47,827 bases of DNA from Gammaproteobacteria bacterium (lineage in GTDB: Bacteria > Pseudomonadota > Gammaproteobacteria > GCA-001735895): the NCBI GenBank assembly GCA_029862125.1, contig JAOTXY010000021.1, positions 1-47,827 on the forward strand. Direction: 5' to 3'. A program made the translations under genes and the position numbers. The notes under the pieces are model-generated. The model worked only from the letters and a program-made list of their open reading frames with translations. It was not told the origin of the DNA and made no database searches. Positions 412-47,706 of this stretch are shown here, piece by piece (position 1 is the stretch's first letter; every line of letters begins with the position of its first letter).

Positions 412-522
412 GGTGCGGCCACCGGAAGCTCTTTTCAGAATCGCCGTAAATACATCCATGTAGGCTCGCGCGCAACATCCCTGTTGCGCAGCGTTCTGAA
501 AAGAGCTTCCGGTGACCACACC
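412..522. repeat. Palindromic element A (long stem, two inner hairpins)
   Basis: Outer arms 421-440 and 494-513 are perfect 20-bp inverted repeats. They extend to 412-440/494-522 (29 bp) with two mismatches of the C/T type. The enclosed 53 nt holds two perfect hairpins: TACATCCATGTA at 451-462, and GCGCAACA/TGTTGCGC with a TCCC loop at 470-489. As RNA or single-stranded DNA it would fold as a multi-branched junction. Positions 451-494 are identical to 13189-13232 in element C, while the arms differ but stay paired. It lies 25 bp past the GGDEF stop codon, so it could shape the transcript 3' end. There is no T-run, so it is not a classical terminator. Confidence 0.85.
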
Positions 523-581
523 TCAGTAATTTCAGCTGCTGTAAAACAGTTTTCGAATCCTATTCCCGAATATTGGTAAAA

Positions 582-841
582 AACTTGGAAGGCAACCGAG
601 GAGGCTCCTTGTGACGTAAAGGCTGGGTGCCGAAAAAAGCGTTGATTTTGAAGGGTCAGGCCGCAGGGATGCGGTGGTCCGACACATCGGCTGTGGCGAG
701 TCGAGACATGGATGTCGCGGTCCGGCGTCCCGGGTCTCGCCTTGCCCTTTAAAATCAGCGCTTCTTCGGGAAGCCGCAGGCCCGATGCGTCGGACCGACC
801 CAGTCAGTCGCAAGGAGCCTCCTCGGTTGCCTTTGATCGGA
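582..841. repeat. Palindromic element B (nested inverted repeats)
   Basis: Outer arms 589-611 and 811-833 are perfect 23-bp inverted repeats. Nested inside, 630-656 pairs with 744-769 with one bulge and a few transition mismatches. The centre carries small hairpins CCGCAGGGATGCGG (661-674) and GACATGGATGTC, which are reverse-strand versions of the two hairpins of element A. The 17-mer CCGATGCGTCGGACCGA at 782-798 also occurs in element C at 13172-13188. The left flank (AAAAACTTGG) and right flank (GATCGGA) recur around element D. It ends about 60 bp past the 3' end of ppa. Confidence 0.8.
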
Positions 842-903
842 ATGGAACGGTAGCCGCACCGATCGAAGGTCGTTTATTAAGCTTGCGATGAAGGGCGAAG
901 CGA

Positions 904-1440
904 CTACTTGGATTCGGCGTTGTAGCGTTCGATGGAGTCGAGGATTTCCTGCTTGGCTGCGTCGGCATCGACCCAGCCGTCGATCTCGACCCACTTCCCG
1001 GCCTCCAGGTCCTTGTAGTGATCGAAGAAGTGCGCGATCGAATCGAGCAGAGACCTGGGCAGGTCGTGAACGCTGTTCATACCCGAATACAGGTTCGAAA
1101 GCTTATCGATTGGCACTGCGATGATCTTCGAATCCTTGCCAGCTTCGTCGGTCATGCATAGCATGCCAAGCGGCCTGACCTGGATTACCGAGCCACTGAT
1201 TACCGGGATCGGTGTTACCACCAATACGTCGGCTGGATCTCCATCCTCGGACAGGGTTTGCGGGATATAACCGTAGTTACAGGGGTAATGCATTGACGTT
1301 CCCATAAAACGATCAACAAACATTGCGCCGGTGTCTTTATCGACCTCATACTTGACCGGATCGCTGTGCGACGGAATCTCGATTATGACGTTGACGTCAT
1401 CGGGTATGTTGCTACCGCTGTTAACCCGGTCCAGGATCAT
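904..1440 (-). CDS. ppa: Soluble inorganic pyrophosphatase (family I)
   Basis: Cytoplasmic Mg-dependent enzyme splitting PPi into two phosphates and so pulling biosynthetic reactions forward. The 178-residue length matches bacterial family I enzymes (about 175). Family landmarks are visible: an N-terminal EIP segment, [15 protein letters not shown], the [11 protein letters not shown] stretch and the metal-binding signature DGDPADVLV, followed by [13 protein letters not shown]. It is the downstream gene of a same-strand block with pfp and hppA, which places three alternative fates of PPi next to each other. A good minus-strand -10 (TATAAT, + coordinates 1470-1475) lies in the 96-bp gap from pfp, so it probably has its own promoter. 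Confidence 0.95.
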
Positions 1441-1469
1441 GATAATGTCACTCGGCGAAAGGGGTGGAG

Positions 1470-1475
1470 ATTATA
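1470..1475 (-). promoter_or_regulatory. Putative -10 element for ppa
   Basis: On the minus strand this reads TATAAT, 30 bp upstream of the ppa start. The region 17 nt further upstream reads CTGTAA, a poor -35 with 3 of 6 matches, so the promoter is plausible but not strong by sequence alone. Confidence 0.4.
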
Positions 1476-1536
1476 ACTAAACAAGTACTATTTTACAGGC
1501 GAGTAAGTCGTCATTCGGTAAATCCGATCGTATGTA

Positions 1537-2793
1537 TTAGAGATCGAAATCATCGAGTTTTTTATCCGCCAGTTCGTTTTTTAGTACCACGTAACTTGGC
1601 ATGCCGCGTTCATCGTAGTCGGGATAAGCTTCACCCTGGATCAGCGGGTAGAGATAGTCGCGACATTTTTGGGTTATTCCGAAACCGTCCTCGCTGATAA
1701 AGTCGAGTGGCATGGTTTTCTCGACATTAGCGACGTCAGCAAGTGCTGCGCTACCGACCTGCCATTGATAGGGATTGTTCGAAATCCGTTCGATGGTTGG
1801 CATGATTGCATTCTTCCCCGCCAGCGCCATTTCCACGCCGGCCTGGCCCAATGCATATGCCTGTTCGAGGTCACTGGCAGAGGCGATGTGACGTGCCGCG
1901 CGCTGCAGGTAGTCGGCCACGGCCCAATGGAACTTGTAACCAAGCGCCTGCTTAACCATGTTGGCAACGACCGGGGCGACGCCACCGAGCTGCGCATGCC
2001 CGAAAGCGTCCCGGGTACCCTGCTCGGCCAGGAAGCTGCCGTCCGCGTTACGCGCACCCTCGGAAACCACGACCGTGCAATAACCGTGAGTTTCGACCTT
2101 GGCCTGCACCGCCTTTACGAACTTGTCGTGATCGAAGTCCACTTCAGGAAACAGCAGCAATACCGGGATTCCGTAGTCTTCGATCAAGCCACCTGCGGCA
2201 GCGATCCATCCCGCATGGCGCCCCATGACTTCGAGAATGAATACCTTGGTTGAAGTCTTGGCCATCGATTTAACATCGAAGGAAGCCTCGAGTGCAGAAA
2301 CTGCGATGTACTTGGCGACTGATCCAAACCCCGGGCAATTGTCGGTGATCGGTAAATCGTTATCCACGGTTTTAGGTATATGTATCGCCTGCACCGGGAA
2401 ACCCATGGTTTCAGAGAGCTGCGAAACCTTGAAGCAGGTGTCGGCCGAGTCTCCGCCACCGTTATAAAAGAAGTAACCGATATCATGTGCCTTGAACACT
2501 TCGATCAGGCGTTCGTATTCACGGCGGTTCTGTTCCAGGCTTTTAAGCTTGAAGCGGCAAGAGCCGAAAGCACCCGAGGGAGTTTTTTTCAGCGCCGCAA
2601 TATCGGCATCGGTTTCGCGTGAGGTATCGATCAACTCTTCAGACAATGCTCCGATGATACCGTTGCGACCGGCAAATACCTTGCCGACTTTATCGCCGTT
2701 CTGACGACAGGTTTCGATAACGCCACAGGCGCTGGCATTTATGACTGACGTTACACCGCCGGACTGTGCGTAAAATGCATTCTTGGAACTCAT
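1537..2793 (-). CDS. pfp: Pyrophosphate-dependent 6-phosphofructokinase
   Basis: Catalyses the reversible reaction fructose-6-phosphate + PPi = fructose-1,6-bisphosphate + phosphate in the cytoplasm. Two positions that separate PPi from ATP users are visible: GGGDS at 112-116 has Asp at 115 where ATP enzymes have Gly, and PKTVDND at 140-146 has Lys141 where ATP enzymes have Gly. The same motif carries the catalytic Asp144 and Asp146. The 418-residue length and motif spacing resemble, from memory, the Methylococcus capsulatus PPi enzyme. In that lineage and in some sulfur-oxidising symbionts it is proposed to run in gluconeogenic/Calvin-cycle direction and to conserve PPi. It lies downstream of hppA on the same strand, but a strong terminator separates them. 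Confidence 0.93.
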   Translation of the reverse strand: MSSKNAFYAQSGGVTSVINASACGVIETCRQNGDKVGKVFAGRNGIIGALSEELIDTSRETDADIAALKKTPSGAFGSCRFKLKSLEQNRREYERLIEVFKAHDIGYFFYNGGGDSADTCFKVSQLSETMGFPVQAIHIPKTVDNDLPITDNCPGFGSVAKYIAVSALEASFDVKSMAKTSTKVFILEVMGRHAGWIAAAGGLIEDYGIPVLLLFPEVDFDHDKFVKAVQAKVETHGYCTVVVSEGARNADGSFLAEQGTRDAFGHAQLGGVAPVVANMVKQALGYKFHWAVADYLQRAARHIASASDLEQAYALGQAGVEMALAGKNAIMPTIERISNNPYQWQVGSAALADVANVEKTMPLDFISEDGFGITQKCRDYLYPLIQGEAYPDYDERGMPSYVVLKNELADKKLDDFDL

Positions 2794-2927
2794 GTTTTTG
2801 CTTCCACGTGATTCTGGTTATGGGTTCATTCGGTATGTTGGTGTAGTGATCACTTCACTTCCGACCGATTACGGGTTTTGCAGAATAGCGTAAAAAACCA
2901 GAAAAAACATTTACCCAGCGGGGATAT

Positions 2928-2956
2928 AAAAAAAGGGTAGTGCAGGCACTACCCTT
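2928..2956 (-). terminator. Rho-independent terminator of hppA
   Basis: Perfect 10-bp stem AAGGGTAGTG (2933-2942) with CACTACCCTT (2947-2956) and a 4-nt loop. On the minus strand it is followed by a run of seven T (+ coordinates 2928-2934). It sits 23 bp past the hppA stop codon, between hppA and pfp. Confidence 0.9.
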
Positions 2957-2979
2957 AATTTTACTTGCAGGTTATCCGG

Positions 2980-4986
2980 TTAACCAAGTAGCGGGGCGAT
3001 AACCAGGCTGACGATTGCCATGACGTTGATCAGGATGTTCATCGAAGGTCCTGACGTGTCCTTGAAAGGATCACCAACAGTGTCGCCGACCACGGTTGCT
3101 GCATGCGTGTCGGTTCCCTTGCCACCGAGATTACCCTTTTCTACGAACTTTTTGGCGTTATCCCAGGCGCCGCCTGCATTTGCCATCATCAACGCCATCA
3201 GAACACAGCTCAACAAGCCACCAGCCAGCATGCCACCCAAGGCCTCGGCGCCGATGATAAATCCCACCAGGGGAGGAGCGCTCACGGCGATCACACCCGG
3301 AACAATCATCTTTTTCAATGCCGCTGTCGTTGCAATATCGACGCAAGTCGCTGTATCGGGCTCCGCTGTGCCTTCGAGCAGACCGTCTATTTCGCGAAAC
3401 TGACGGCGAATTTCCTTGATCATTTCGAACGCCGCATCGCCCACCGCGGTCATCGTGATCGACGCGATGATGAATGGAATGATGCCACCGATGAAGAGTC
3501 CGATTAACACTTCCGGATTATTCAGTACGAGTTCGAAATTTTCAATGTTGATGGAAACGGTCTCGATATAGGCGGTGATAATCGCAAGCGCTGCGAGTGC
3601 CGCTGCACCGATAGCGAATCCCTTGCCAATTGCCGCAGTCGTATTACCGAGTTCATCGAGCGAATCGGTAATCTTGCGGGTGTCTTCGCCCAGGCCGGAC
3701 ATTTCGGCGATGCCACCGGCGTTATCGGCGACCGGGCCGTAAGCGTCGATCGCCATGGTAATACCGACCGTGGCAAGCATGCCCACGGCAGCGATACCGA
3801 CTCCGTAAAGCCCTGCGAACTCGCTTGCAACCCAGATAATGCCGCATATCGTCAGGATCGGTACCGCAACCGATTGCATGCCGATCGCCAGACCGCTGAT
3901 CATGACGGTGGCCGCCCCGGTTTCCCCAGACTTGGCGATGTGCTCGACCGGCTTGCCGGCAGTGTAATACTCGGTGACCAGGCCAATGATAATACCGCCG
4001 ACTGCACCGGCCAGTACTGCTACCCAGATTCCGCTGCTCAGGTCCAGCATTGAGATCAGGAAATAGGCGAGCGCGATGAACAGTACCGATGAGCCCATGG
4101 TACCCATACGCAGGGCTTTCTCAGGTGATTTGCTCGAGTTGACCTTGACGATCATAATGCCACCGATCGAGCACAGAAGACCCAGCGATGCCAGCGCCAG
4201 CGGCAGGTTCATCATCGCTCCACGGCCGCCCATTGCTTCGGTTGCAGCGACCGCCATGGTCGACGCTATAGCGATAGAGGCGATCATCGAGTTGCAGTAG
4301 GACTCGAAAATGTCGGAACCCATGCCAGCCACGTCGCCCACGTTGTCGCCCACGTTATCGGCGATGACACCGGGGTTGCGTGGGTCGTCTTCCGGTATGC
4401 CGGCTTCAATCTTGCCGACCAGGTCGGCACCGACGTCGGCGCTCTTGGTGAAAATGCCACCACCGACACGCGAGAACAGCGCAACCACCGAAGCGCCCAT
4501 CGCAAAACCGTGGATTGCATGCAGCGAGTCGATATCACCAGAGAATAGAAAAAACACGATTCCCAGCCCGAGCAGACCCAGCGATGCGACCGCAAGACCC
4601 ATGATCGAGCCACCGAAAAAGGCCACGGTTAGAGCAGCGGCGGCACCCTCGTTATGGGCTGCGGTTGTGGTTCTTACATTAGCGCGAGTAGCCGTGTTCA
4701 TGCCGATATAACCGGCGGACCCGGAGGCCAGGGCACCCATCAGAAAGCAAAACGCGGTTCCAAAGCCGAGAAAGATATACAGCAACACCATTAGTACTGC
4801 GGCAAACATGGTCAGCATCTTGTATTCACGCTTCATGAATACCATCGCACCAAGGTGAATCTGATTGCCGATTTCGACAACTTTACCTTCGCCTTCGGGA
4901 TGTTTCTTGACCTGCGCATAGACATATGCGGCCGCTACCAGTCCGAAGGCACCGAAAATCGGCGGCAATAGGTTACTTAACTCCAT
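2980..4986 (-). CDS. hppA: K+-dependent ion-translocating membrane pyrophosphatase
   Basis: Integral membrane pump coupling PPi hydrolysis to H+ (or Na+) export. I chose the ATG at 4986, preceded by GGGGAAAG and starting MELSNL, over an in-frame start 21 codons upstream; this gives 668 residues with many membrane helices. The substrate site shows [18 protein letters not shown] and the DNVGDNVGD repeat. The subclass segment [14 protein letters not shown] has Ala and Gly where K+-independent enzymes have Lys and Thr, so it should need K+. The gate glutamate lies in SDIFESY, as in Thermotoga-type enzymes. That position alone does not settle H+ versus Na+. It heads the PPi block with pfp and ppa downstream and is divergent from mrdA. 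Confidence 0.95.
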
Positions 4987-5189
4987 AATTCTTTCCCCAA
5001 ATATTGTGATGTTTTTTAGGTATTCTTGCCCGATATTTAATGGGGCCACAAAAAAACGCGTGAATGATATCGGTTTTTTGCCTTATATTGAAATTACTTT
5101 ACATATTTCCGACGCTTTTTTTGCTATTTTTCTGCTATTGTCGTCACATCCGCCAATGATCCGCATTTCCAAAGGTTAATTCCGTTTCA

Positions 5190-7031
5190 ATGCCGAAGCG
5201 AGAGCAGTTACAAGACGATTATCTCGAGAGCCGTTTGATTCGGCGCCGCCTGGTGTTATCGGCCATTTTTATCGTGATTTTGTTAAGCCTCGTACTCGGC
5301 AGGTTATACGTGTTGCAGATCGTCGAACATGAGCATTTTTCGACGCTTTCAGATAGTAATCGCGTTCGCATCAAGGCATTGCCTCCAACACGCGGGTTGA
5401 TATTCGATCGCCACGGCGTCGTTATGGCCGACAACTTGCCTGCCTATCGACTGGAAATCGTGCGCGAACAGGTCGAAGACCTGGACAGCACGTTGCAGCA
5501 GCTGCGGCAGTATGTCGAATACAGCGACCAGGACCTGAAACGATTCAAGCAGTCTTTAAAGCGCCGGCGACCATTCGAAAGCATTCCGTTGCGCCTGAAC
5601 CTGAAAGATGAAGAGGTTGCCAGGTTGGCGGTTAACCTGCACCGATTCGAGGGTGTCGAAATTAACGCTCGCCTGACCCGCAATTACCCGCAAGGTTCAC
5701 ACGCGGTGCATGCGCTCGGTTACGTCGGCCGGATCGACGAAAGAGATCTTGGTGAAGTCGACGGAGTTGAATATGCCGGTACCACCCATATCGGCAAGCT
5801 TGGCCTGGAAAAATTCTATGAGCATGAACTGCATGGTACGGTCGGGGTGCAGCATGTCGAGGTCAACGCCAATGGTCGCACCCTGCGCGTGTTAAATGAA
5901 TCTCCCCCGGTGCAGGGTAACAACCTTCATCTGACGATCGATTCCAGTTTGCAGAAGGTGGCCGAGGAGGCTTTTGGTAATAGTTCCGGGGCAGTCGTCG
6001 CTATCGATCCCAATAATGGTGAGATCCTGGCATTGGTATCTATGCCGATTTTTAATCCCAATTTATTCGTCAATGGAATCAGCTTCATCAAGTACAATGA
6101 ATTGCGTGATTCGCACCAGCGGCCCCTGTTTAATCGCGCTCTTTCGGGACAATATCCTCCAGGGTCTACGACCAAACCTTTTTACGGATTAGCAGGGCTT
6201 GAATCGGCATTCGCGAAAAAGGAAGAGGAAATCCATTGCGTCGGATATTATAAGCTTCCCAACGAAGAGCGCAGGTATCGTGACTGGAAAAAGCAGGGGC
6301 ACGGGCCTGTGAATCTGACCGATGCGATAACCCAGTCCTGCGATGTCTATTTTTACGATCTCGCCTTTCGGCTTGGAATAGATCTCATGTCTTCATTCCT
6401 GGGTGAGTTCGGGTATGGAATTGAAACAGGCGTAGACAGTACTGGTGAACGTAAAGGTATATTACCATCGAGGGAATGGAAAAGAGGCCATGACGGTATG
6501 CCCTGGTTTCCAGGTGAAACCCTGATTACCGGCATCGGCCAGGGGTATCTCCTGGTCACTCCATTGCAGCTTGCAAACTCGATTGCAGCTTTTTCGGTCA
6601 GGGGAACCCGCTATCAACCGCACCTGGTCAAATCGGTTGAAAAAGTTCCTGAATACAATCGCATTGAAATTGCGAGCCGCGTAGCGGGACGCTACGAACT
6701 GAAAAGAGAGCATAACTGGGAGCATGTTCATAAAGCCATGATCAACGTCGTGCATGGATTGCGCGGAACTGCGCGTGGTATCAATCAGGGACTTCAGTAC
6801 AAAGTGGCTGGTAAAACCGGTACCGCGCAGGTGTTTGAGGTGGCTCAGGATGAAGAGTACGATGAAGAAACTGTACTTGAGAAACTGCGTGATCATGCAT
6901 TGTTCGTCAGTTATGCACCCGCAGATGATCCGCAGATTGCTGTTGCTGTGATTGTCGAGAATGGAGGCAGTGGAAGTGCGGTGGCTGCTCCGATAGCGCG
7001 TCGTATCATGGACGCGTACCTGCTGGAGTAG
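5190..7031 (+). CDS. mrdA: Penicillin-binding protein 2, elongasome transpeptidase
   Basis: Class B transpeptidase crosslinking peptidoglycan during lateral growth, anchored in the inner membrane with the catalytic domain in the periplasm. One N-terminal membrane helix lies at residues 21-42 after a basic stretch, followed by the pedestal domain with RGLIFDRHG. In the catalytic domain the serine motif STTK is at 326-329 in the PPGSTTK context, the SxN box is SCD as usual in PBP2, and KTG sits in AGKTGTAQV. The 613-residue length is typical. It starts the operon with mrdB two bases after its stop, followed by mltB, rlpA and dacA, the conserved order of gammaproteobacteria. Confidence 0.96.
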   Translation: MPKREQLQDDYLESRLIRRRLVLSAIFIVILLSLVLGRLYVLQIVEHEHFSTLSDSNRVRIKALPPTRGLIFDRHGVVMADNLPAYRLEIVREQVEDLDSTLQQLRQYVEYSDQDLKRFKQSLKRRRPFESIPLRLNLKDEEVARLAVNLHRFEGVEINARLTRNYPQGSHAVHALGYVGRIDERDLGEVDGVEYAGTTHIGKLGLEKFYEHELHGTVGVQHVEVNANGRTLRVLNESPPVQGNNLHLTIDSSLQKVAEEAFGNSSGAVVAIDPNNGEILALVSMPIFNPNLFVNGISFIKYNELRDSHQRPLFNRALSGQYPPGSTTKPFYGLAGLESAFAKKEEEIHCVGYYKLPNEERRYRDWKKQGHGPVNLTDAITQSCDVYFYDLAFRLGIDLMSSFLGEFGYGIETGVDSTGERKGILPSREWKRGHDGMPWFPGETLITGIGQGYLLVTPLQLANSIAAFSVRGTRYQPHLVKSVEKVPEYNRIEIASRVAGRYELKREHNWEHVHKAMINVVHGLRGTARGINQGLQYKVAGKTGTAQVFEVAQDEEYDEETVLEKLRDHALFVSYAPADDPQIAVAVIVENGGSGSAVAAPIARRIMDAYLLE

Positions 7032-7033
7032 TT

Positions 7034-8155
7034 ATGAATCAGGCACTGGATTCCGATACGACTTCGATAACGCGGCGTGTACTGGACGCGCTGCGACTTG
7101 ATCCGGTGCTACTGTCGCTGGTGATTGTACTGGCCCTGTTCGGTAGCATGGTGTTGTATAGCGCGAGTGGCTCAGACCAGGCGGTGGTGATTCGGCAATT
7201 GACCCGCATCATTTTCGCCCTGTTGCTGTTGGTAGCGGCTGCTAATATACCGCTGCGAATGATTCGCAAGATTTCGATATGGTTATACCTCGCCGGGGTA
7301 GCGATGCTAATTGCAGTCATGTTCTATGGCGAAGTTGGCAAAGGTGCGCAACGTTGGCTGAACCTGGGGTTTATCCGGTTTCAGCCTTCGGAAATTCTCA
7401 AGCTCGCGGTACCCATGATTGTCGCAACCTATATTGCTAATCGGGTATTGCCCGTGGGTTTGAAGGAACTCGTGGTTTCGTCGGTATTGGTAGCGGTCCC
7501 GGTGCTGCTGATCGCAAGACAGCCCGATCTCGGCACCGCTATCCTGGTTGGCAGTGCCGGGTTTTTTGTCTTGTTTCTTGCCGGTGTGCGTTGGCGTGTA
7601 ATGATCAGCCTGGGTGTGTTGTTGTCATTGATGGCACCCCTGTTGTGGAAGTTTGCATTGCACGACTACCAGCGTAAACGTATAGCAACCCTGCTGGATC
7701 CGGAAAGCGATCCGCTTGGGTCCGGTTACCATATAATACAATCCAAGATCGCGATCGGCTCGGGTGGTGTTTATGGTAAGGGTTGGTTGAACGGTACGCA
7801 GTCTCAACTGGATTTTATTCCAGAGCGCTCAACCGACTTTATTTTCTCGGTATTTGGTGAAGAATTCGGATTCTTTGGCAGTATTGTCTTGATATTGATC
7901 TATGTGGCAATTATCTTTCGTGGTCTTTACATTGCCGCGAATTCCACGGAAAATTTTGGGCGTCTACTGGCTGGCGCGTTTAGCCTGACATTTTTTGTTT
8001 ACCTGTTCGTAAATACCGGAATGGTAGCTGGCATGCTGCCAGTGGTTGGTGTGCCGTTACCTTTGATAAGCTATGGGGGCACTTCTATGGTGACCTTGAT
8101 GATAGGCTTTGGTTTAATTATGTCGATACGATCGGCAAAGCGATTTATGGTGTGA
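7034..8155 (+). CDS. mrdB: RodA, SEDS peptidoglycan glycosyltransferase
   Basis: Polytopic inner-membrane glycosyltransferase that polymerises lipid II in the elongasome together with PBP2. The 373 residues contain about ten hydrophobic segments. SEDS landmarks are present: GAQRWLNLGFIRFQPSE in the first half, and toward the C-terminus PLPLISYGGTSM, a close match to the family signature. It starts 2 bp after mrdA, and its TGA overlaps the ATG of mltB by one base, indicating translational coupling in the wall operon. Confidence 0.96.
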   Translation: MNQALDSDTTSITRRVLDALRLDPVLLSLVIVLALFGSMVLYSASGSDQAVVIRQLTRIIFALLLLVAAANIPLRMIRKISIWLYLAGVAMLIAVMFYGEVGKGAQRWLNLGFIRFQPSEILKLAVPMIVATYIANRVLPVGLKELVVSSVLVAVPVLLIARQPDLGTAILVGSAGFFVLFLAGVRWRVMISLGVLLSLMAPLLWKFALHDYQRKRIATLLDPESDPLGSGYHIIQSKIAIGSGGVYGKGWLNGTQSQLDFIPERSTDFIFSVFGEEFGFFGSIVLILIYVAIIFRGLYIAANSTENFGRLLAGAFSLTFFVYLFVNTGMVAGMLPVVGVPLPLISYGGTSMVTLMIGFGLIMSIRSAKRFMV

Positions 8156-9150
8156 TGAAAAGATTACTATTTATGCTGGGTTTTTTTACAGCCCCACTGG
8201 TATCCGCGTTGGAAATACCCGGTGGTGATTATCAGGGCCGTGACGATGTAGTAGCCTTTGTGCAGCGCATGGCCTCAGATACCAATTATAGCGAACAGGA
8301 GCTTGTGAGTTTGTTTGCACAGGTGAAAAAACAGAAGCACCTGTTTGAGAAGTTGGATCGACCTGCTGAAAAGGAACTCGAGTGGCACCAGTACCGTGGT
8401 ATTTTCATCAAGGACAAGCGTATAGCTCTTGGAGTTGAGTTCTGGCGAGAGCATCAAGAGCTTCTTGCCGTTGTCAGCGAAAAAACGGGTGTGCCCCCGG
8501 AAATCATCGTCGCAATAATCGGGGTTGAATCTTTTTATGGAACCTACAAGGGTAAAGATCCCGTGTTTGATAGCCTGGTGACACTGGCCTTTGACTACCC
8601 CCGACGGGCCAAATTTTTTATGCGTGAACTGGAAGAATTCCTGCTGCTGTCCAAGGAGCAGGGCTTTGAGGCACGCTCTTTGCGAGGGTCCTATGCCGGC
8701 GCGATGGGTATGCCGCAGTTCATTTCGTCGAGTTATCGTAGCTATGCGATCGATTTTGACGAGGACGGGCAGACCAATTTATTCGATAGCATTCCCGATA
8801 TCGCCGGCAGTGTCGCAAACTACTTCGTAAGGCACGGATGGCAGCGCGATGGACGTGTCGCGCGACCGTTAGTTGCCGGTGAAAACAATTCGGCCGATAG
8901 TCTCGAACCCGGTGTTAAAACTGACTACAAGTGGGCGCAATTGAAACGGAATGGCCTGACTTCGCAGTTTGATATTGGCGAGGAGACGCCGGTAGCCCTG
9001 GTCAGGCTGCAACAGAAAGATCGCCCGGAATACTGGGCCGGTTTTCAAAATTTCTATGTTATTACGCGCTACAACCATAGCGAACTTTACGCGATGGCCG
9101 TATACCAGCTCGCCAAACTGATCAGTCGAGAGTTCAAGAAAACGTCATGA
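8155..9150 (+). CDS. mltB: Membrane-bound lytic transglycosylase B
   Basis: Periplasmic lytic transglycosylase cleaving glycan strands with formation of 1,6-anhydroMurNAc. I chose the ATG at 8155, which overlaps the rodA stop; a GTG one codon earlier is possible. A signal peptide covers about residues 1-18 and ends at VSALE without a lipobox cysteine, so the mature enzyme may be soluble rather than lipid-anchored. The catalytic glutamate is E125 in GVESFYG. Further family blocks are AGAMGMPQFISSSY and FDEDGQTNLF. The 331-residue length fits. Its stop overlaps the start of rlpA. Confidence 0.93.
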   Translation: MKRLLFMLGFFTAPLVSALEIPGGDYQGRDDVVAFVQRMASDTNYSEQELVSLFAQVKKQKHLFEKLDRPAEKELEWHQYRGIFIKDKRIALGVEFWREHQELLAVVSEKTGVPPEIIVAIIGVESFYGTYKGKDPVFDSLVTLAFDYPRRAKFFMRELEEFLLLSKEQGFEARSLRGSYAGAMGMPQFISSSYRSYAIDFDEDGQTNLFDSIPDIAGSVANYFVRHGWQRDGRVARPLVAGENNSADSLEPGVKTDYKWAQLKRNGLTSQFDIGEETPVALVRLQQKDRPEYWAGFQNFYVITRYNHSELYAMAVYQLAKLISREFKKTS

Positions 9151-9938
9151 GACAACATTGCGTTTTCTCATTGCTGGTCGTGCTGATGCTAAGTGCCTGC
9201 ACCTTTGGTGTGCCGATCGGAAATCAGGCGCAACAACGGGATTTGGTGGCTAAGAAAACAATCCCGTCGGAACGGGGAAATCCGTCATCTTATGTCGTGT
9301 TTGGCAAGCGCTACCACGTGCTCGACAGTTACGAGGGGTTCAGGCAACGTGGTGTCGCCTCCTGGTATGGGACCAAGTTTCATGGCCGGCCGACTTCCAG
9401 TGGTGAGATCTACAATATGCATGCCATGACGGCGGCGCATAAGACCTTGCCAATTCCGGTATATGTACATGTTAAAAATCTGGATAACGGTCGCTCGACA
9501 GTAGTCCGGGTTAATGACAGGGGTCCATTTATTGAAGGTCGTATTATCGACCTGTCCTATGCGGCAGCGAGAAAACTGGGTGTCAATGGTCCTGGTACCG
9601 CTAATGTCGAGATCAGTGCCCTGAGGGAAGGGGAAAGCAAACCGGTCCGCGTGGCGCGCAGTATTCCCTTGGCTGATGAAGCCGACTTTAATTTACCGTT
9701 GTTTATTCAAATGGGATCTTTCTCCGATCCGGTGAATGCCAATAACCTGGTTCAGAATCTATTCGAGGCGAACGAGTCCTCGGCCAGGGTATCCCGCCTG
9801 CAAACTGATCAGGGTCTCTATTACCGGGTGCGGGTTGGGCCCCTGTTCGATATCGACGAGGCAAATGCGATTGTCAGGCGTCTCAAGACCAAGGGTTTTC
9901 AGACCGCACGTATCGTGGTAGCGGACGCCACCGAATAA
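9147..9938 (+). CDS. rlpA: RlpA, septal-ring lytic transglycosylase lipoprotein with SPOR domain
   Basis: Lipoprotein that in Pseudomonas cleaves denuded glycan strands at division sites. The signal peptide ends in the lipobox LSAC, with Cys18 as lipidation site. A double-psi beta-barrel spans about residues 68-160 and shows GVASWYG, the catalytic-site glutamate region SSGEIYNMHAMTAAH and VRVNDRGPF. A C-terminal SPOR domain (about 188-263, beginning FIQMGSFSDPVNANNL) should bind denuded glycans. It overlaps mltB by 4 bp in the PBP2-RodA operon. Confidence 0.94.
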   Translation: MRQHCVFSLLVVLMLSACTFGVPIGNQAQQRDLVAKKTIPSERGNPSSYVVFGKRYHVLDSYEGFRQRGVASWYGTKFHGRPTSSGEIYNMHAMTAAHKTLPIPVYVHVKNLDNGRSTVVRVNDRGPFIEGRIIDLSYAAARKLGVNGPGTANVEISALREGESKPVRVARSIPLADEADFNLPLFIQMGSFSDPVNANNLVQNLFEANESSARVSRLQTDQGLYYRVRVGPLFDIDEANAIVRRLKTKGFQTARIVVADATE

Positions 9939-10010
9939 ACCTTGTTAGCAAAGTCGGCGATCGCTACAATCGCGTCTCGTTACGGGTCCCCTTTGCAAAG
10001 TCTGTCTAAT

Positions 10011-11150
10011 ATGAAAATCGTCTCGCTAGTTTTTACTCTCCTTGTACTGCTGTGGTCTGCATCTGGCTGGGCTGCTGCCAAACCGATTCCGGATCCGCCG
10101 GCCCTTAATGCGACGAGCTATATCCTGGTCGACTTTGAATCGGGCAGGGTACTCGCAGAGAGTAATCCCGATGAGCATGTTGAGCCAGCCAGTATTACCA
10201 AGTTGATGACTGCTTACCTGGTTGACAAGGCGATTGCCGATGGGGACATTACCCTGGACGACATGGTGACCATCAGCGAGAAGGCCTGGCGCATGAAAGG
10301 ATCGAAGATGTTTGTCGAAGTAGGCAAGCAGATATCGGTTGAGGAGTTACTAAAAGGCTTGATCATACAGTCAGGGAATGATGCAAGCGTGGCGCTGGCC
10401 GAGCATGTCGCCGGTTCCGAGTCGGCCTTTGCAGGTTACATGAACCACCAGGCGCAGTTACTGGGGATGACTAACACCAATTTCGTTAACGCGACCGGTT
10501 GGCCGGATAAGGATCACTACAGTAGCGCGCGCGATATCGCGACGCTTTCACGGGCTGTAATCCGTGAGTTTCCCGAATCTTATCGTTATTACAAAGAACG
10601 TGAGTATACATTTAACAAGATCCGGCAATTTAATCGCAATCGCCTGTTGTGGCGCGATGAGTCGGTTGACGGGATCAAGACTGGCCATACCTCGGCAGCC
10701 GGATTTTGCCTGGTGGCATCGGCACTGCGCGAGGAAATGCGGCTGATCTCCGTAGTGCTTGGAGCTGAATCCGACAAGACGCGCACTCAAAGTAGCCAAT
10801 CGCTTTTGAATTATGGGTTTCGTTTCTTTGAAACCCACCAACTGTATCGAGCAGAAGAAATATTGAAGGCAGCAAGAGTCTGGTACGGCGACCAGGAGCA
10901 GATCAACATGGGGGTTGGTAAGGATATTCATATCACGATTCCACGGGGACGTTACGGGGATTTAGATGCCACGATGGAAATCGACCGTGAAATTTCGGCA
11001 CCAATTGCTCGTGGACAGCAGCTTGGACGGGTCAGTATAAAGCTCGATGATGAAATGATTCTATCCGAGGACATTGTGGCGATGCAGGCTGTTGCGGCAG
11101 GCAGCTTCTTTGCCAGGGCGATGGACAGAATCAAGTTAATGTTCCGCTAA
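10011..11150 (+). CDS. dacA: D-alanyl-D-alanine carboxypeptidase (PBP5/6 type)
   Basis: Periplasmic low-molecular-mass PBP trimming the terminal D-Ala of pentapeptides. I chose the ATG at 10011, whose product begins MKIVSLVFTL with a clean signal peptide cleaved near AAA23; the open frame extends upstream to a TTG at 9942, but that stretch lacks signal-peptide character. Active-site motifs are SITK (61-64), SGN in IQSGNDAS, and KTG in GIKTGHTSAAG. The C-terminus has a PBP5 beta domain and an amphipathic tail (FFARAMDRIKLMFR) expected to anchor to the inner membrane. Its TAA overlaps the ATG of ybeD. Confidence 0.95.
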   Translation: MKIVSLVFTLLVLLWSASGWAAAKPIPDPPALNATSYILVDFESGRVLAESNPDEHVEPASITKLMTAYLVDKAIADGDITLDDMVTISEKAWRMKGSKMFVEVGKQISVEELLKGLIIQSGNDASVALAEHVAGSESAFAGYMNHQAQLLGMTNTNFVNATGWPDKDHYSSARDIATLSRAVIREFPESYRYYKEREYTFNKIRQFNRNRLLWRDESVDGIKTGHTSAAGFCLVASALREEMRLISVVLGAESDKTRTQSSQSLLNYGFRFFETHQLYRAEEILKAARVWYGDQEQINMGVGKDIHITIPRGRYGDLDATMEIDREISAPIARGQQLGRVSIKLDDEMILSEDIVAMQAVAAGSFFARAMDRIKLMFR

Positions 11151-11437
11151 TGAGCGACGACCAGGCATCCGCTGAATCCGCGCTAGCACTGATTGACTAT
11201 CCGAGCCGATTTCCGCTCAAGGTATTTGGCAAGCAATCCGACGATTTCGAAGCCATAGTGCTGGCGCTGGTGAGGTCTAGATGTCCCCAGGCGGAGCATA
11301 TAGAGGTTCGCCGACGCAATAGCAAAGGCGGCAAGTACCAGGCATTAACGCTCACCTTCACTGTATATAGCCAGCAACAACTGGAAGAGATATACCAGGA
11401 CTTATATGACTGCGATGCGGTCGTAATGTCGTTATAG
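11150..11437 (+). CDS. ybeD: YbeD/DUF493 family protein
   Basis: Small 95-residue protein with an ACT-like ferredoxin fold of unproven function. It is conserved between dacA and lipB in gammaproteobacteria, as here. Visible family features are YPSRFPLKVFG near the N-terminus, RRRNSKGGKYQALTLTF in the middle and an ending close to LYDCDAVVMSL. The start overlaps the dacA stop by one base. A regulatory link to lipoate genes is often guessed from neighbourhood but not shown. Confidence 0.9.
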   Translation: MSDDQASAESALALIDYPSRFPLKVFGKQSDDFEAIVLALVRSRCPQAEHIEVRRRNSKGGKYQALTLTFTVYSQQQLEEIYQDLYDCDAVVMSL

Positions 11438-11549
11438 GCTGCTACGGCATCTGATGCGGTCGCGGTTGATCGCTGGATATTTCTTAAAATAGTGATTGGC
11501 TCTCGTGTACACTCCGATCATTGAATTTAGCCTCCCTGGCGCAGTGCAC

Positions 11550-12197
11550 GTGACAACCTCACCGAATCATATCGAAGTCAAATATCTGGGTATGTCTGAT
11601 TACCGGAAAACCTGGGACGAGATGAAGGATTTCACCAATCGACGTAATTCGGAAACCCGTGACGAACTCTGGATCACTGAGCATGCCCCGGTATTTACCC
11701 AGGGTCTGAATGGACGTGCCGAGCATCTGTTAGATCCCGGTGATATTCCTGTCGTGCAGATTGATCGAGGCGGTCAGGTTACCTACCACGGTCCCGGACA
11801 ACTGGTGCTTTACTGTCTACTTGATATCACGCGCCTCGGCCTCGGGGTTAAGGGGCTGGTAACACGGATTGAAAAATCTGTAATTAGTTTACTCGAAGGT
11901 TACCAGGTAGAGGCGTATGGCCGAAAAGGTGCGCCTGGCGTTTATGTCGGGCAGGCCAAGATTGCCGCGCTTGGTTTGCGCATTCGAAAAGGTTGTTGTT
12001 ATCATGGCTTGAGTTTGAATATTGATATGGACCTGGAACCATTTACGCGCATTAATCCCTGTGGTTACGAGGGTCTTGCTGTTACCCAGTTGCGTGACCA
12101 GGGTATCGCCGACGGGATGGAGCAGGTGGGCCATGATCTGGCCGAAATACTCATTGGAAATATAAGTGAAAAAGAATCAGGTTATTCAGGGCGTTAA
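11550..12197 (+). CDS. lipB: Octanoyl-[acyl-carrier-protein]:protein N-octanoyltransferase
   Basis: Moves octanoyl groups from ACP to lipoyl domains of 2-oxoacid dehydrogenases and the glycine cleavage H protein, the first step of lipoate synthesis. Motifs are [23 protein letters not shown], and GAPGVYV with Lys in AKIAALG (acyl-transfer lysine), then HGLSLNI and NPCGYEG with the catalytic Cys. The start is uncertain: GTG at 11550 gives 215 residues, like E. coli (213); GTG at 11544 and TTG at 11496 are in frame. It overlaps lipA by 32 bp, which implies coupled translation. Confidence 0.93.
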
Positions 12198-13119
12198 GCT
12201 CAAGGGAGCCGACAAGGTAGCCCGCATCCCGATCAAGGTTGTGCCGTCCAGGACGATACAACGTAAACCACCGTGGATTCGTGCCAAGGCCCCCAGCGGG
12301 GACCGCGTAAAACAACTTAAGGCGCGCCTGCGCGAAAACAGCCTGTTTACGGTTTGTGAAGAGGCGTCCTGTCCCAACCTCGGAGAATGTTTTTCCAAGG
12401 GCACCGCGACCTTCATGATCATGGGTGATATCTGTACCCGGCGTTGCCCTTTTTGCGATGTGGGTCATGGCCGGCCCAATCCACTGGATACGCACGAACC
12501 TGCAAACCTGGCGAGGACGATATACGACATGGAGCTGCGCTATGTCGTCATCACTTCGGTCGACCGGGATGATTTGCGCGACGGCGGTGCGGGTCATTTT
12601 GTTGATTGTATTCATGAAACACGCAAGTTGAATCCCGAAATCAAAATTGAAATCCTGACCCCGGACTTCCGCGGTCGCATGGATGTCGCGCTTGAAATCA
12701 TGACCCAGGCGCCACCGGACGTTTTCAATCACAATCTCGAGTCGGTACCCTCGCTATACCGGAAAATACGCCCGGGATCAGATTATGAATGGTCGCTGGA
12801 CTTGCTGGAAAAGTTCAAGCAAATGCATCCGCAGGTGCCGACCAAGTCTGGTTTAATGCTGGGGCTCGGCGAAGAAATCGACGAGGTTAAGCAGGTGTTG
12901 CGTGATTTGCGCGAGCACCAGGTCAATATGCTGACCCTGGGTCAGTACCTGCAACCCAGCCTGGATCATCTCGCCGTCGAACGTTTCGTCACTCCGGATG
13001 AATTTGATGAGCTTGGTGCGTACGCTGAATCTATCGGTTTCGACCAGGTCGCCAGCGGCCCGATGGTACGCTCCTCCTACCACGCCGACCTGCAAGCCGA
13101 ATCCGTCCTCAACGCCTGA
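12166..13119 (+). CDS. lipA: Lipoyl synthase (radical SAM)
   Basis: Radical SAM enzyme inserting two sulfurs into protein-bound octanoyl groups. Both iron-sulfur sites are visible: the auxiliary cluster motif [12 protein letters not shown] and the radical SAM motif CTRRCPFC. The C-terminal RSSYHAD contains the serine that ligates the auxiliary cluster. The GTG start at 12166 gives 317 residues, close to E. coli (321), and lies inside the end of lipB. It is the last gene of the wall-lipoate run; a weak terminator and palindromic elements follow. Confidence 0.96.
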
Positions 13120-13134
13120 TTAATCCATATACCC

Positions 13135-13260
13135 GGCGCGGCCATCGGATTATCTTTGCGGGATCGCCGTACCGATGCGTCGGACCGATACATCCATGTA
13201 GGCTCGCGCGCAACATCCCTGTTGCGCAGCGTCCCGCAAAGATAATCCGATAGCCACGCC
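13135..13260. repeat. Palindromic element C (sister of element A)
   Basis: Arms 13144-13163 and 13232-13251 are a perfect 20-bp inverted repeat, extended to 29 bp (13135-13163/13232-13260) with two mismatches at the same positions as in element A. The core 13189-13232 is identical over 44 nt to 451-494. Seven of the 20 arm positions differ from element A, and each change is matched in the opposite arm. Relative to A there is an extra small hairpin CCGATGCGTCGG at 13172-13183, a module also present in element B. Confidence 0.87.
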
Positions 13261-13366: not shown

Positions 13367-13507
13367 AAAACTTGAAGCTACCTCGGGAGGATTCCCGCAA
13401 AAGTGTAGCGAGGCAGGACGCCGAGCTCCAAGCGATTCCATGGATGGACCAACCGGCGTTTACGCCGGTTGGAAGCGGCTTTTGCGGGAATCCTCCCGAG
13501 GTAGCGA
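13367..13507. repeat. Palindromic element D (sister of element B)
   Basis: Outer arms 13377-13403 and 13479-13505 form a perfect 27-bp inverted repeat. The loop contains TCCATGGATGGA and then a perfect 10-bp hairpin with arms CCAACCGGCG/CGCCGGTTGG and TTTA loop. The left flank AAAAACTTG and right flank GATCGGA match the flanks of element B, although the stems differ. It ends about 10 bp past the 3' end of nadE. Confidence 0.83.
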
Positions 13508-34032: not shown

Positions 34033-35001
34033 TTAGGGCTTCTTTTTGGAGCGTCGCTGCTCCGGGTGAAGGCTTGCGCCGAGAATGTGTTCACTTCGGG
34101 CAATGGCATGATCACTGGAGGTGACGATAAACGGATCGGGTTCGCCAACCGAGTCAAAGTCCTTGTCATCGTAATTTAAAGTCGACAGGAAATGGCGCAT
34201 GCAGTTCAGGCGCGCGCGTTTCTTGTCATCGGACTTAATGATCGTCCACGGTGCATCGGCGGTATCGGTATAGAAGAACATCGCTTCCTTGGCCTCGGTA
34301 TAGTCGTCCCACTTGTCGATCGACGCCTGGTCGACGGGTGATAATTTCCACTGTTTGAGCGGGTCGCTTTTACGTGATTCAAAGCGTTTGCGCTGTTCGT
34401 CCTGGGTTACCGAAAACCAGTATTTGTACAACAGGATGCCGGAGCGGACCAGCATGCGCTCGATCTCGGGGCACTGACGCATGAACTCGAGATAAGCGGT
34501 CGGGTCACAAAACCCCATGACGCGCTCGACCCCGGCGCGGTTATACCAGGAGCGGTCGAGCAGTACGATTTCGCCGGCGGAGGGCAGATGTTTGAAATAG
34601 CGCTGAAAGTACCATTGCGTTTGCTCGGCTGCGGTTGGTTTTTCCAGGGCGACGACCCTCGCGCCACGAGGATTAAGGTGCTCCATGAAACGCTTGATTG
34701 CACCACCCTTGCCGGCGGCATCCCGGCCTTCAAACAGAACCACAATTTTCTTGCCGGTTGATTTAACCCAGCGCTGAACCTTGAGTAACTCGACCTGCAG
34801 CAAGGCCTTTTCCCGCTCGTATTCCGATTTCTTAATCCTGTCCTCGTAGGGATACATGCCGTTTTCAAACCTGCGGATAACGTCCATGCGCTCTATTTCA
34901 TGCTGAGCGATGCCGCTGTCTTCCAACGACTGGATTTTGATTTGCGAACTATCGTCAGCTTCCAGTTCGGGGCTTGAGTCCGGGACTATGGATTCGTTCA
35001 T
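34033..35001 (-). CDS. ppk2: Polyphosphate kinase 2
   Basis: P-loop kinase transferring phosphate between polyphosphate and nucleotides (class I members prefer NDPs; classes differ in substrate). One PPK2 domain follows a roughly 40-residue acidic N-terminus. Walker A reads GRDAAGKGG, Walker B VLLDRSWYNRAGVE, and the lid region includes RKSDPLKQWKLSPVD. I used the ATG at 35001 (322 residues); an in-frame ATG at 35061 adds 20 residues, and neither has a good ribosome site. It is separate from the PPi block, but both concern phosphoanhydride energy. Gap of 212 bp to mutS with nothing recognisable. Confidence 0.9.
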   Translation of the reverse strand: MNESIVPDSSPELEADDSSQIKIQSLEDSGIAQHEIERMDVIRRFENGMYPYEDRIKKSEYEREKALLQVELLKVQRWVKSTGKKIVVLFEGRDAAGKGGAIKRFMEHLNPRGARVVALEKPTAAEQTQWYFQRYFKHLPSAGEIVLLDRSWYNRAGVERVMGFCDPTAYLEFMRQCPEIERMLVRSGILLYKYWFSVTQDEQRKRFESRKSDPLKQWKLSPVDQASIDKWDDYTEAKEAMFFYTDTADAPWTIIKSDDKKRARLNCMRHFLSTLNYDDKDFDSVGEPDPFIVTSSDHAIARSEHILGASLHPEQRRSKKKP

Positions 35002-47505: not shown

Positions 47506-47706
47506 ATGCTGATATTGACTCGGCGTGTCGGGGAGACCTTAATGATCGGCGACGAAGTGACCGTAACCGTTCTCGGCGTTAAGGGAAACCAGGTAAGGAT
47601 TGGGGTGAATGCGCCTCGGGAAGTGGCGGTGCATCGTGAGGAAATCTACGATCGCATCAAGGCGGAAGAGGGGCAGGAAGAATTGGGAAATACAGCCGAA
47701 GGATAA
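47506..47706 (+). CDS. csrA: Carbon storage regulator CsrA
   Basis: 66-residue dimeric RNA-binding regulator that represses or stabilises target mRNAs by binding GGA in hairpin loops. The sequence begins [18 protein letters not shown], with Arg6-type and the later [19 protein letters not shown] containing the Arg44 position needed for RNA binding. The ribosome region is GGAGAGATAGGA. Position between lysC and tRNA-Ser is conserved in gammaproteobacteria. Confidence 0.97.

Follow-up and report, generated by a model that had tools for sequence, protein, structure and literature searches.

A gammaproteobacterial superfamily of small mobile palindromic repeats with a strand-specific fold and a putative CsrA dimer site

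The window analysed here, a stretch of 47,827 nt from contig JAOTXY010000021.1 of a gammaproteobacterium (assembly GCA_029862125.1), carries two palindromic elements, A and C. Judged by sequence comparison, both are members of a superfamily of small mobile repeats spread among Gammaproteobacteria, to which the Yersinia repeat YPAL/RU-2 also belongs. The constrained fold is, according to the substitution pattern of the stems, that of the strand bearing GGATG (the GGA strand; the opposite one is called the CATCC strand). The chances seem to us about even that the elements are mobile, dispersed RNA modules presenting a putative dimer site for the post-transcriptional regulator CsrA.

The two palindromes, their copies and named relatives

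Element A occupies positions 412-522, and its minus strand, which bears GGATG, is the one that folds; the arms (412-440/494-522) form a long stem joined to a three-way junction. Element C (13135-13260, also folding on the minus strand) has an extra hairpin in the core at about 13170-13187. A repeat search found 29-nt arms, 93% complementary, in both. The original prediction had described perfect 20-bp inverted-repeat arms (421-440/494-513 in A, 13144-13163/13232-13251 in C) that differ at 7 of 20 positions with all seven changes compensated, set around an identical core. This description was confirmed, positions 450-494 and 13188-13232 being the same letter for letter, and a 36-nt core stretch found twice in the window was expected 0.00 times in 100 window shuffles, which excludes chance. 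Neither a core confined to two places in the genome nor arms mutating without compensation in other copies, the two findings named as speaking against the prediction, was encountered: the 36-nt stretch has 13 matches in the source genome (at most 3 mismatches) and 16 copies were extracted, while in the 14 copies scored, those without an insertion in the scored part of the core, 275 of 280 arm cells are Watson-Crick pairs. The arms of these 14 copies pair with their own partners at 19.6 of 20 positions on average and with those of other copies at 10.8 of 20; the mean pairwise identity is 54% for the arms and 93% for the 53-nt core (12 copies).

Both elements are halves of larger inverted pairs, in which the GGATG-bearing strands of the two palindromes face away from each other. 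The composite element of A spans 401-870, has no assigned strand and ends, by eye, in sequences resembling terminal inverted repeats (401-419 and 853-870); a left-end motif like this one was seen again at other copies. The partner of A (589-833, plus strand, arms 589-628/794-833) has GGA motifs on the plus strand at 663-672 and 706-715. It is of another type than the partner of C, which is a P2 palindrome (13377-13505, plus strand) with GGA hairpins at 13412-13422 (GGCAGGACGCC, a variant loop) and 13438-13447 (CCATGGATGG). This P2 palindrome scores weakly with the covariance model of the A and C type, P1 (15.8 bits, E 0.1). A palindrome of the 13377 type lies downstream in the same relative orientation in 12 of the 16 copies of the source genome. 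The inverted order is also the commonest multi-copy order in the other genera analysed, where a single such pair was found in 16 of 23 multi-copy gaps; solitary copies also occur.

The spread of the family was followed with a core pattern and with the covariance model R1. The pattern matched at least 119 stretches of named genomes, with Stenotrophomonas, Xanthomonas, Marinobacter, Rheinheimera, Yersinia and Methylomonas among the matches listed; 79 of the 80 listed stretches carry names that we take to be gammaproteobacterial and one is named only as Pseudomonadota. Among 398 Pseudomonadota genomes the pattern occurred in 23, all of them labelled as the window's own or as of its class, and the reversed-pattern control gave none. 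With R1 (E <=0.001, weak matches included), 19 of 31 genomes of the window's genus were matched, as were 52 of 276 genomes and 46 of 215 genera in the class sample. No match to element A was found in the plasmids or phages searched. Five of 5426 E. coli genomes contain a partial match to a Yersinia copy, four of the five places being on plasmids. The waste-water E. coli plasmid NZ_CP058751.1 carries, at 34768-34839, a 72-bp relative of the Yersinia element with 82% identity; genes of ISKpn26 and Tn5403 are close by, and the relative itself has no annotation beneath it.

YPAL is the Yersinia palindromic sequence (De Gregorio 2006; Delihas 2007), and it is reported to have variable target-site duplications of 3-26 bp. 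The remark in the original prediction that no named element behaves in this way did not hold, since the core is that of YPAL/RU-2: all 27 letters of window positions 442-468 (minus strand) recur in the RU-2 sequence printed in PMC2759123, including one ANGGA hairpin. The accessible parts of PMC2759123 and PMC2229807 also describe a long stem, an intergenic location and mobility with empty and filled sites. The same parts present YPAL/RU-2 as a 168-bp repeat of Yersinia and Erwinia, whereas the inverted pairs of the window comprise two palindromes and span about 370 and 470 bp; compensated arm variation, inverted pairs, a link to CsrA and a spread beyond Yersinia and Erwinia are not mentioned in those parts. 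Moreover, two Yersinia loci and one of two Sodalis loci pass the gathering cut-off of 70 of the Rfam family Ysr224 (RF02770), at 126.5, 100.9 and 82.9 bits, respectively. The Ysr224 model has a different structure, however, and on the CATCC strand it spans the element only in part. The window copies score 24 and 22 bits with it (E 0.0036 and 0.011), and at gathering scores no Rfam family matched the window.

Fold, strand of constraint and twin loops

To derive the fold, 42 elements with arms unlike one another were aligned, all of them selected for having 17 or more of 20 arm positions paired. The result is a three-way junction of 33 pairs, and for 29 of these one or more sequences differ at both partners. 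The covariation score was 0.772, against 0.194 in shuffles and 0.10-0.22 in slid controls, and 88.8% of cells were paired, against 57.3% in the control. The covariance model gave 90.5 bits on the minus strand of A versus 23.7 on the plus strand, and 63.7 versus 26.3 bits for C. Likewise, RNA folding of A yielded -74.9 kcal/mol for the GGATG strand and -65.6 kcal/mol for the other.

The strand under constraint was read from the imperfect pairs, as an A.C mismatch on the CATCC strand is a G.U pair on the GGATG strand. Of the 184 elements, 152 have 15 or more of 20 arm pairs; their arm mismatches on the CATCC strand comprised 112 A.C, 25 G.T and 116 others. After clustering to 102 arms, A.C still exceeded G.T (75 vs 19, p 5e-9), also when counted per element (44 vs 12 with 46 ties, p 2e-5). 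The inner stems of the junction hairpin P3 show the same bias (39 vs 7), and so do the arms of the P2 palindrome family, for which the 40 hits scored, out of 66, gave 29 G.U against 4 A.C on the GGA strand. The bias keeps its direction in each gene context (13:1, 10:3, 46:10, 3:1 and 12:4, small counts), which speaks against a transcription-linked mutation bias. In addition, tandem G.A pairs were seen by eye on the GGA strand of P3 in four elements (L128, L136, L153 and L154). The one-strand bias, common to arms, P3 and the P2 palindrome family, thus identifies the fold of the GGATG strand as the constrained one.

Strand-specific folding of this kind could also be read as a single-stranded DNA hairpin recognised on one strand by an HUH/RAYT-like mobility enzyme, the loops and the fold serving as recognition marks; when A is folded as DNA, the structure of lowest energy is the one obtained for RNA. 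An inverted-pair architecture is likewise that of the REPINs, and REP/REPIN sequences with their REP-associated Y1 transposase (RAYT) resemble the present elements in being dispersed palindromes, often in inverted pairs. P1 differs from them in its larger size and two-hairpin junction. The association with a RAYT gene that had been suggested was not borne out, as the genome yielded a single Y1 transposase gene and the stretch around that gene contained no match to the elements. Copies of the elements also occupy the same sites in different species, and near-identical repeated copies in one genome (G069) end in 19-bp terminal inverted repeats, which are typical of other transposon types. We consider this DNA reading improbable, and we infer that the folded molecule is RNA rather than single-stranded DNA.

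On the GGATG strand, the junction hairpins P2 and P3 typically end in C-ANGGAY-G loops. GGA is present in 128 of 131 P3 hairpin loops, P3 being absent from the retrieval pattern. The loops also persist in those 29 elements of the set L092-L191 that the covariance model found outside the pattern (some near-identical copies among them): 22 have two CANGGANG loops, six have one and one has none, and junction and bulge letters are altered in these elements while the loops are kept. The distance from GGA to GGA is 20 nt in 107 of 129 cases and 19-22 nt in 127. In A, the loops on the GGATG strand are AACAGGGAUGUU and UACAUGGAUGUA; the CsrA-site-like hairpin loops lie on the minus strand at 453-460 (CAUGGAUG) and 476-483 (CAGGGAUG, within AACAGGGAUGUU), with the other GGA 20 nt away.

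These loops were compared with published CsrA ligands. According to the accessible text of PMC7652899, the consensus from systematic evolution of ligands by exponential enrichment (SELEX) is RUACARGGAUGU, with mostly six-nucleotide loops and AC pairing with GU, the optimum for dual-site CsrA binding lies at more than 18 nt between sites, and the RsmE ligand is an ANGGAN hexaloop; the corresponding text of PMC6849547 gives the CsrA/RsmE motif as A/U-CANGGANG-U/A. P1 agrees with this description of high-affinity, dual-site ligands, having ANGGA hairpin hexaloops and two sites more than 18 nt apart. The P2 palindrome family, which is built on another scaffold and is little like P1 yet also has two GGA hairpins, agrees only in part. 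Conservation of the loops, their fixed distance, stems that vary freely yet stay paired and a wobble bias on one strand are most simply accounted for if RNA from the GGATG strand folds and is bound by a dimer having two pockets for GGA, a description that CsrA fits. No link of these repeats to CsrA was found in the literature searched (titles and abstract openings); relative to that literature a CsrA role of the repeats is new, and the Yersinia members are already known.

Orthologous sites and mobility

Many intergenic sites are filled in two or more species of the genus. Thirty-eight comparisons with alike left flanks were made, which share genomes and so are not independent; one element (L274) was left out because of its chimaeric arms. 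In the 25 comparisons with arms at least 75% alike, 442 of 500 cells were the same and 40 compensated, 14 differed by G.U on the GGA strand and two by G.U on the other strand, and two were of other kinds. At the site of A, for instance, the arms read GGAAGCTC/GAGCTTCC in the source genome and GGAAACTC/GAGTTTCC in genome G030. The compensated changes at orthologous sites, together with the G.U pairs of the GGATG strand and covariation far above the controls, support selection on stem pairing, the first of the two explanations offered in the original prediction. Faster evolution of the arms than of the flanks was rejected, both averaging 90% identity in the 25 alike comparisons (flank partly coding).

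The 13 less alike comparisons, which include flipped or replaced elements, had 117 unchanged, 124 compensated and nine other cells. At two sites (S2 and S13) the whole pair is flipped between species, and similar arm alleles turn up again at unrelated sites. The left and right arms of L274 (genome G008, contig C304) come from different alleles, as expected from recombination of inverted copies in the core, although misassembly is possible as the G008 assembly is fragmented. The second explanation, in which the arms are rewritten as a unit, is in part supported by the 13 comparisons with largely different yet paired arms, by the recurrent alleles and by the two flips.

These data also bear on a neutral upkeep of the palindromes, where template switching or gene conversion would copy one arm onto the other and keep the pair perfect without selection. 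The very perfect pairing would follow, as would the 13 of 38 comparisons, with G.U at five cells on each strand; the similar alleles at other sites count in its favour too, and the chimaeric arms of L274 fit recombination between inverted copies. Such copying gives no evident reason for A.C being four times commoner than G.T on one strand, for the conservation of the loops or for the 20-nt spacing, and as the explanation of the family it appears quite improbable. Nevertheless, the great predominance of Watson-Crick pairs and the lack of wobble bias in the 13 less alike comparisons point to some copying, conversion or replacement of arms next to selection on the fold.

Presence and absence at one site were seen in the gap behind ppa, where P1 occurs in four of 18 judged genomes and only the P2 type in two, and no loop motif lies within 620 nt in the remaining 12; five of the 23 loci were mis-anchored and excluded, two of which (G000 and G008) carry P1. 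Filled and empty sites among relatives, as reported for YPAL/RU-2, therefore exist at this gap. Repeats of different kinds also appear to serve as vehicles of the module: near-identical copies in G069 (L305-L314) carry the junction, in L305 within a 209-bp unit bounded by the 19-bp terminal inverted repeats, and near-identical copies in G096 (L315-L324) carry it in nested larger palindromes. Miniature inverted-repeat transposable elements (MITEs) are characterised by terminal inverted repeats and a lack of coding capacity; of such ends, the 19-bp repeats were observed in the G069 copies, and those of the window were read by eye only.

Contig C1 of genome G490 (94445-95607) has six core matches on one strand at a spacing of about 227 bp, resembling a tandem array. 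In several contigs of the genus, among them G008 C438, C49 and C5, G006 C46 and G030 C40, the end lies about 70-270 bp from an element, so that assembly may fail at such places and the copy numbers may be too low.

Gene context and the proposed CsrA site

The candidate ligand is encoded in the window itself. The csrA gene (47506-47706, plus strand) encodes a protein of 66 aa, which differs little from CsrA of solved structure across 58 aligned residues. The source genome has further CsrA-like genes: one lies at C138:5589-5726, and a possibly broken or frameshifted copy is present as two adjacent pieces at C52:55289-55442. The CsrB covariance model found nothing above the cut-off in the source genome, which is a weak negative. 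Compared with the CsrB/RsmZ sponge RNAs, the elements have ANGGA hairpins that could in principle titrate CsrA; they differ in being dispersed repeats with two sites each and no promoter signal found.

Gene context was taken from a simple hexamer-scored gene caller, which placed 150 of 184 elements. Convergent gaps are enriched, holding 67 of the 150 placed elements as against 152 of 833 adjacent gene pairs at the same loci. The gene on the GGA side shows no orientation preference (34 of 66 single-element gaps). Two sources of a GGA-strand transcript found no support: gene orientation does not favour its being merely the 3' untranslated region of a convergent gene, and a private promoter is not supported, as the score upstream of the GGA strand is 4.35 versus 4.41 in shuffled sequence.

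The proposed sequence of events is as follows. The unit is a strand-specific folded module consisting of a long stem, free in sequence and with enforced pairing, and two short hairpins. Read-through from a convergent gene, or else antisense transcription, may copy its GGATG strand into RNA; this would then fold, and one CsrA/RsmA dimer could bridge both loops. As the long stem would only have to hold the hairpins, its letters could drift by paired changes through G.U intermediates, and also through exchange with other copies and perhaps arm-to-arm copying. Jointly, the many copies might act as CsrA decoys, as protein-capped RNA structures at gene ends, or as both.

Several observations weigh against this proposal. 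The gene ending closest to an element usually lies on the CATCC strand, at a median distance of 48 nt, and the nearest gene is on that strand in 45 of 66 single-element gaps, so that the GGA form would often be antisense. The lack of a promoter signal on the GGA strand counts here as well, and T-runs behind this strand are few (10 of 128). Ysr224, the annotated small RNA of the family, lies on the CATCC strand. Among the P2-family hits, only 27 of 66 have two strict CANGGAYG motifs, 34 having one and five none; the first hairpin often reads AGGAC, and some hits are incomplete or fall on the wrong strand. The hairpin inserted in C pairs partly with the second loop in the lowest-energy fold. SELEX ligands mostly have four or fewer contiguous pairs, according to the accessible part of PMC7652899. 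As for the stems, the less alike orthologous comparisons show no wobble bias, and G.U makes up 3.7% of arm cells against 91.7% for Watson-Crick pairs in the 152 elements, a set picked for pairing. Such a G.U share is low for RNA helices, so something beyond selection on RNA may keep the arms perfect. Finally, G.T and tandem G.A pairs would also be tolerated by a strand-specific single-stranded DNA hairpin.

The same gene context is what would be expected if the elements were structures of mRNA 3' ends, the CATCC form being transcribed with the upstream gene and protecting the message or ending transcription, as proposed for YPAL. Elements stand close behind CATCC-strand genes and convergent gaps are over-represented, and the CATCC-strand annotation of Ysr224 agrees with such transcripts. 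Expression of several copies of Ysr224 in Y. ruckeri is described in PMC12112432, and according to PMC2229807 YPAL might affect the stability of upstream transcripts. The wobble departures and, by eye, the tandem G.A pairs fall on the opposite strand, T-runs are rare on the CATCC side too (12 of 128), and the two conserved ANGGA loops are left unexplained. A 3'-end role seems unlikely to account for the family.

Under the reading of a putative CsrA dimer site, we infer binding of CsrA to the twin loops and, from it, a decoy role. It is a tentative proposal, which we think rather doubtful, that in the chromosomes of Gammaproteobacteria such mobile and dispersed elements serve by the tens as decoys for CsrA; they would be selfish repeats, surviving by the offer of a CsrA dimer site on a sequence-free stem, and would partly set the size of the free CsrA pool. 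The analysis joins a Yersinia repeat, a Yersinia small RNA family and unnamed palindromes of many genera in one superfamily with a fold and a strand, and the proposal names a concrete protein partner, CsrA. The strand-resolved wobble test is a general means of asking which strand of a palindrome is selected. If the decoy proposal is true, repeats that are usually overlooked would buffer a main post-transcriptional regulator of the Gammaproteobacteria.

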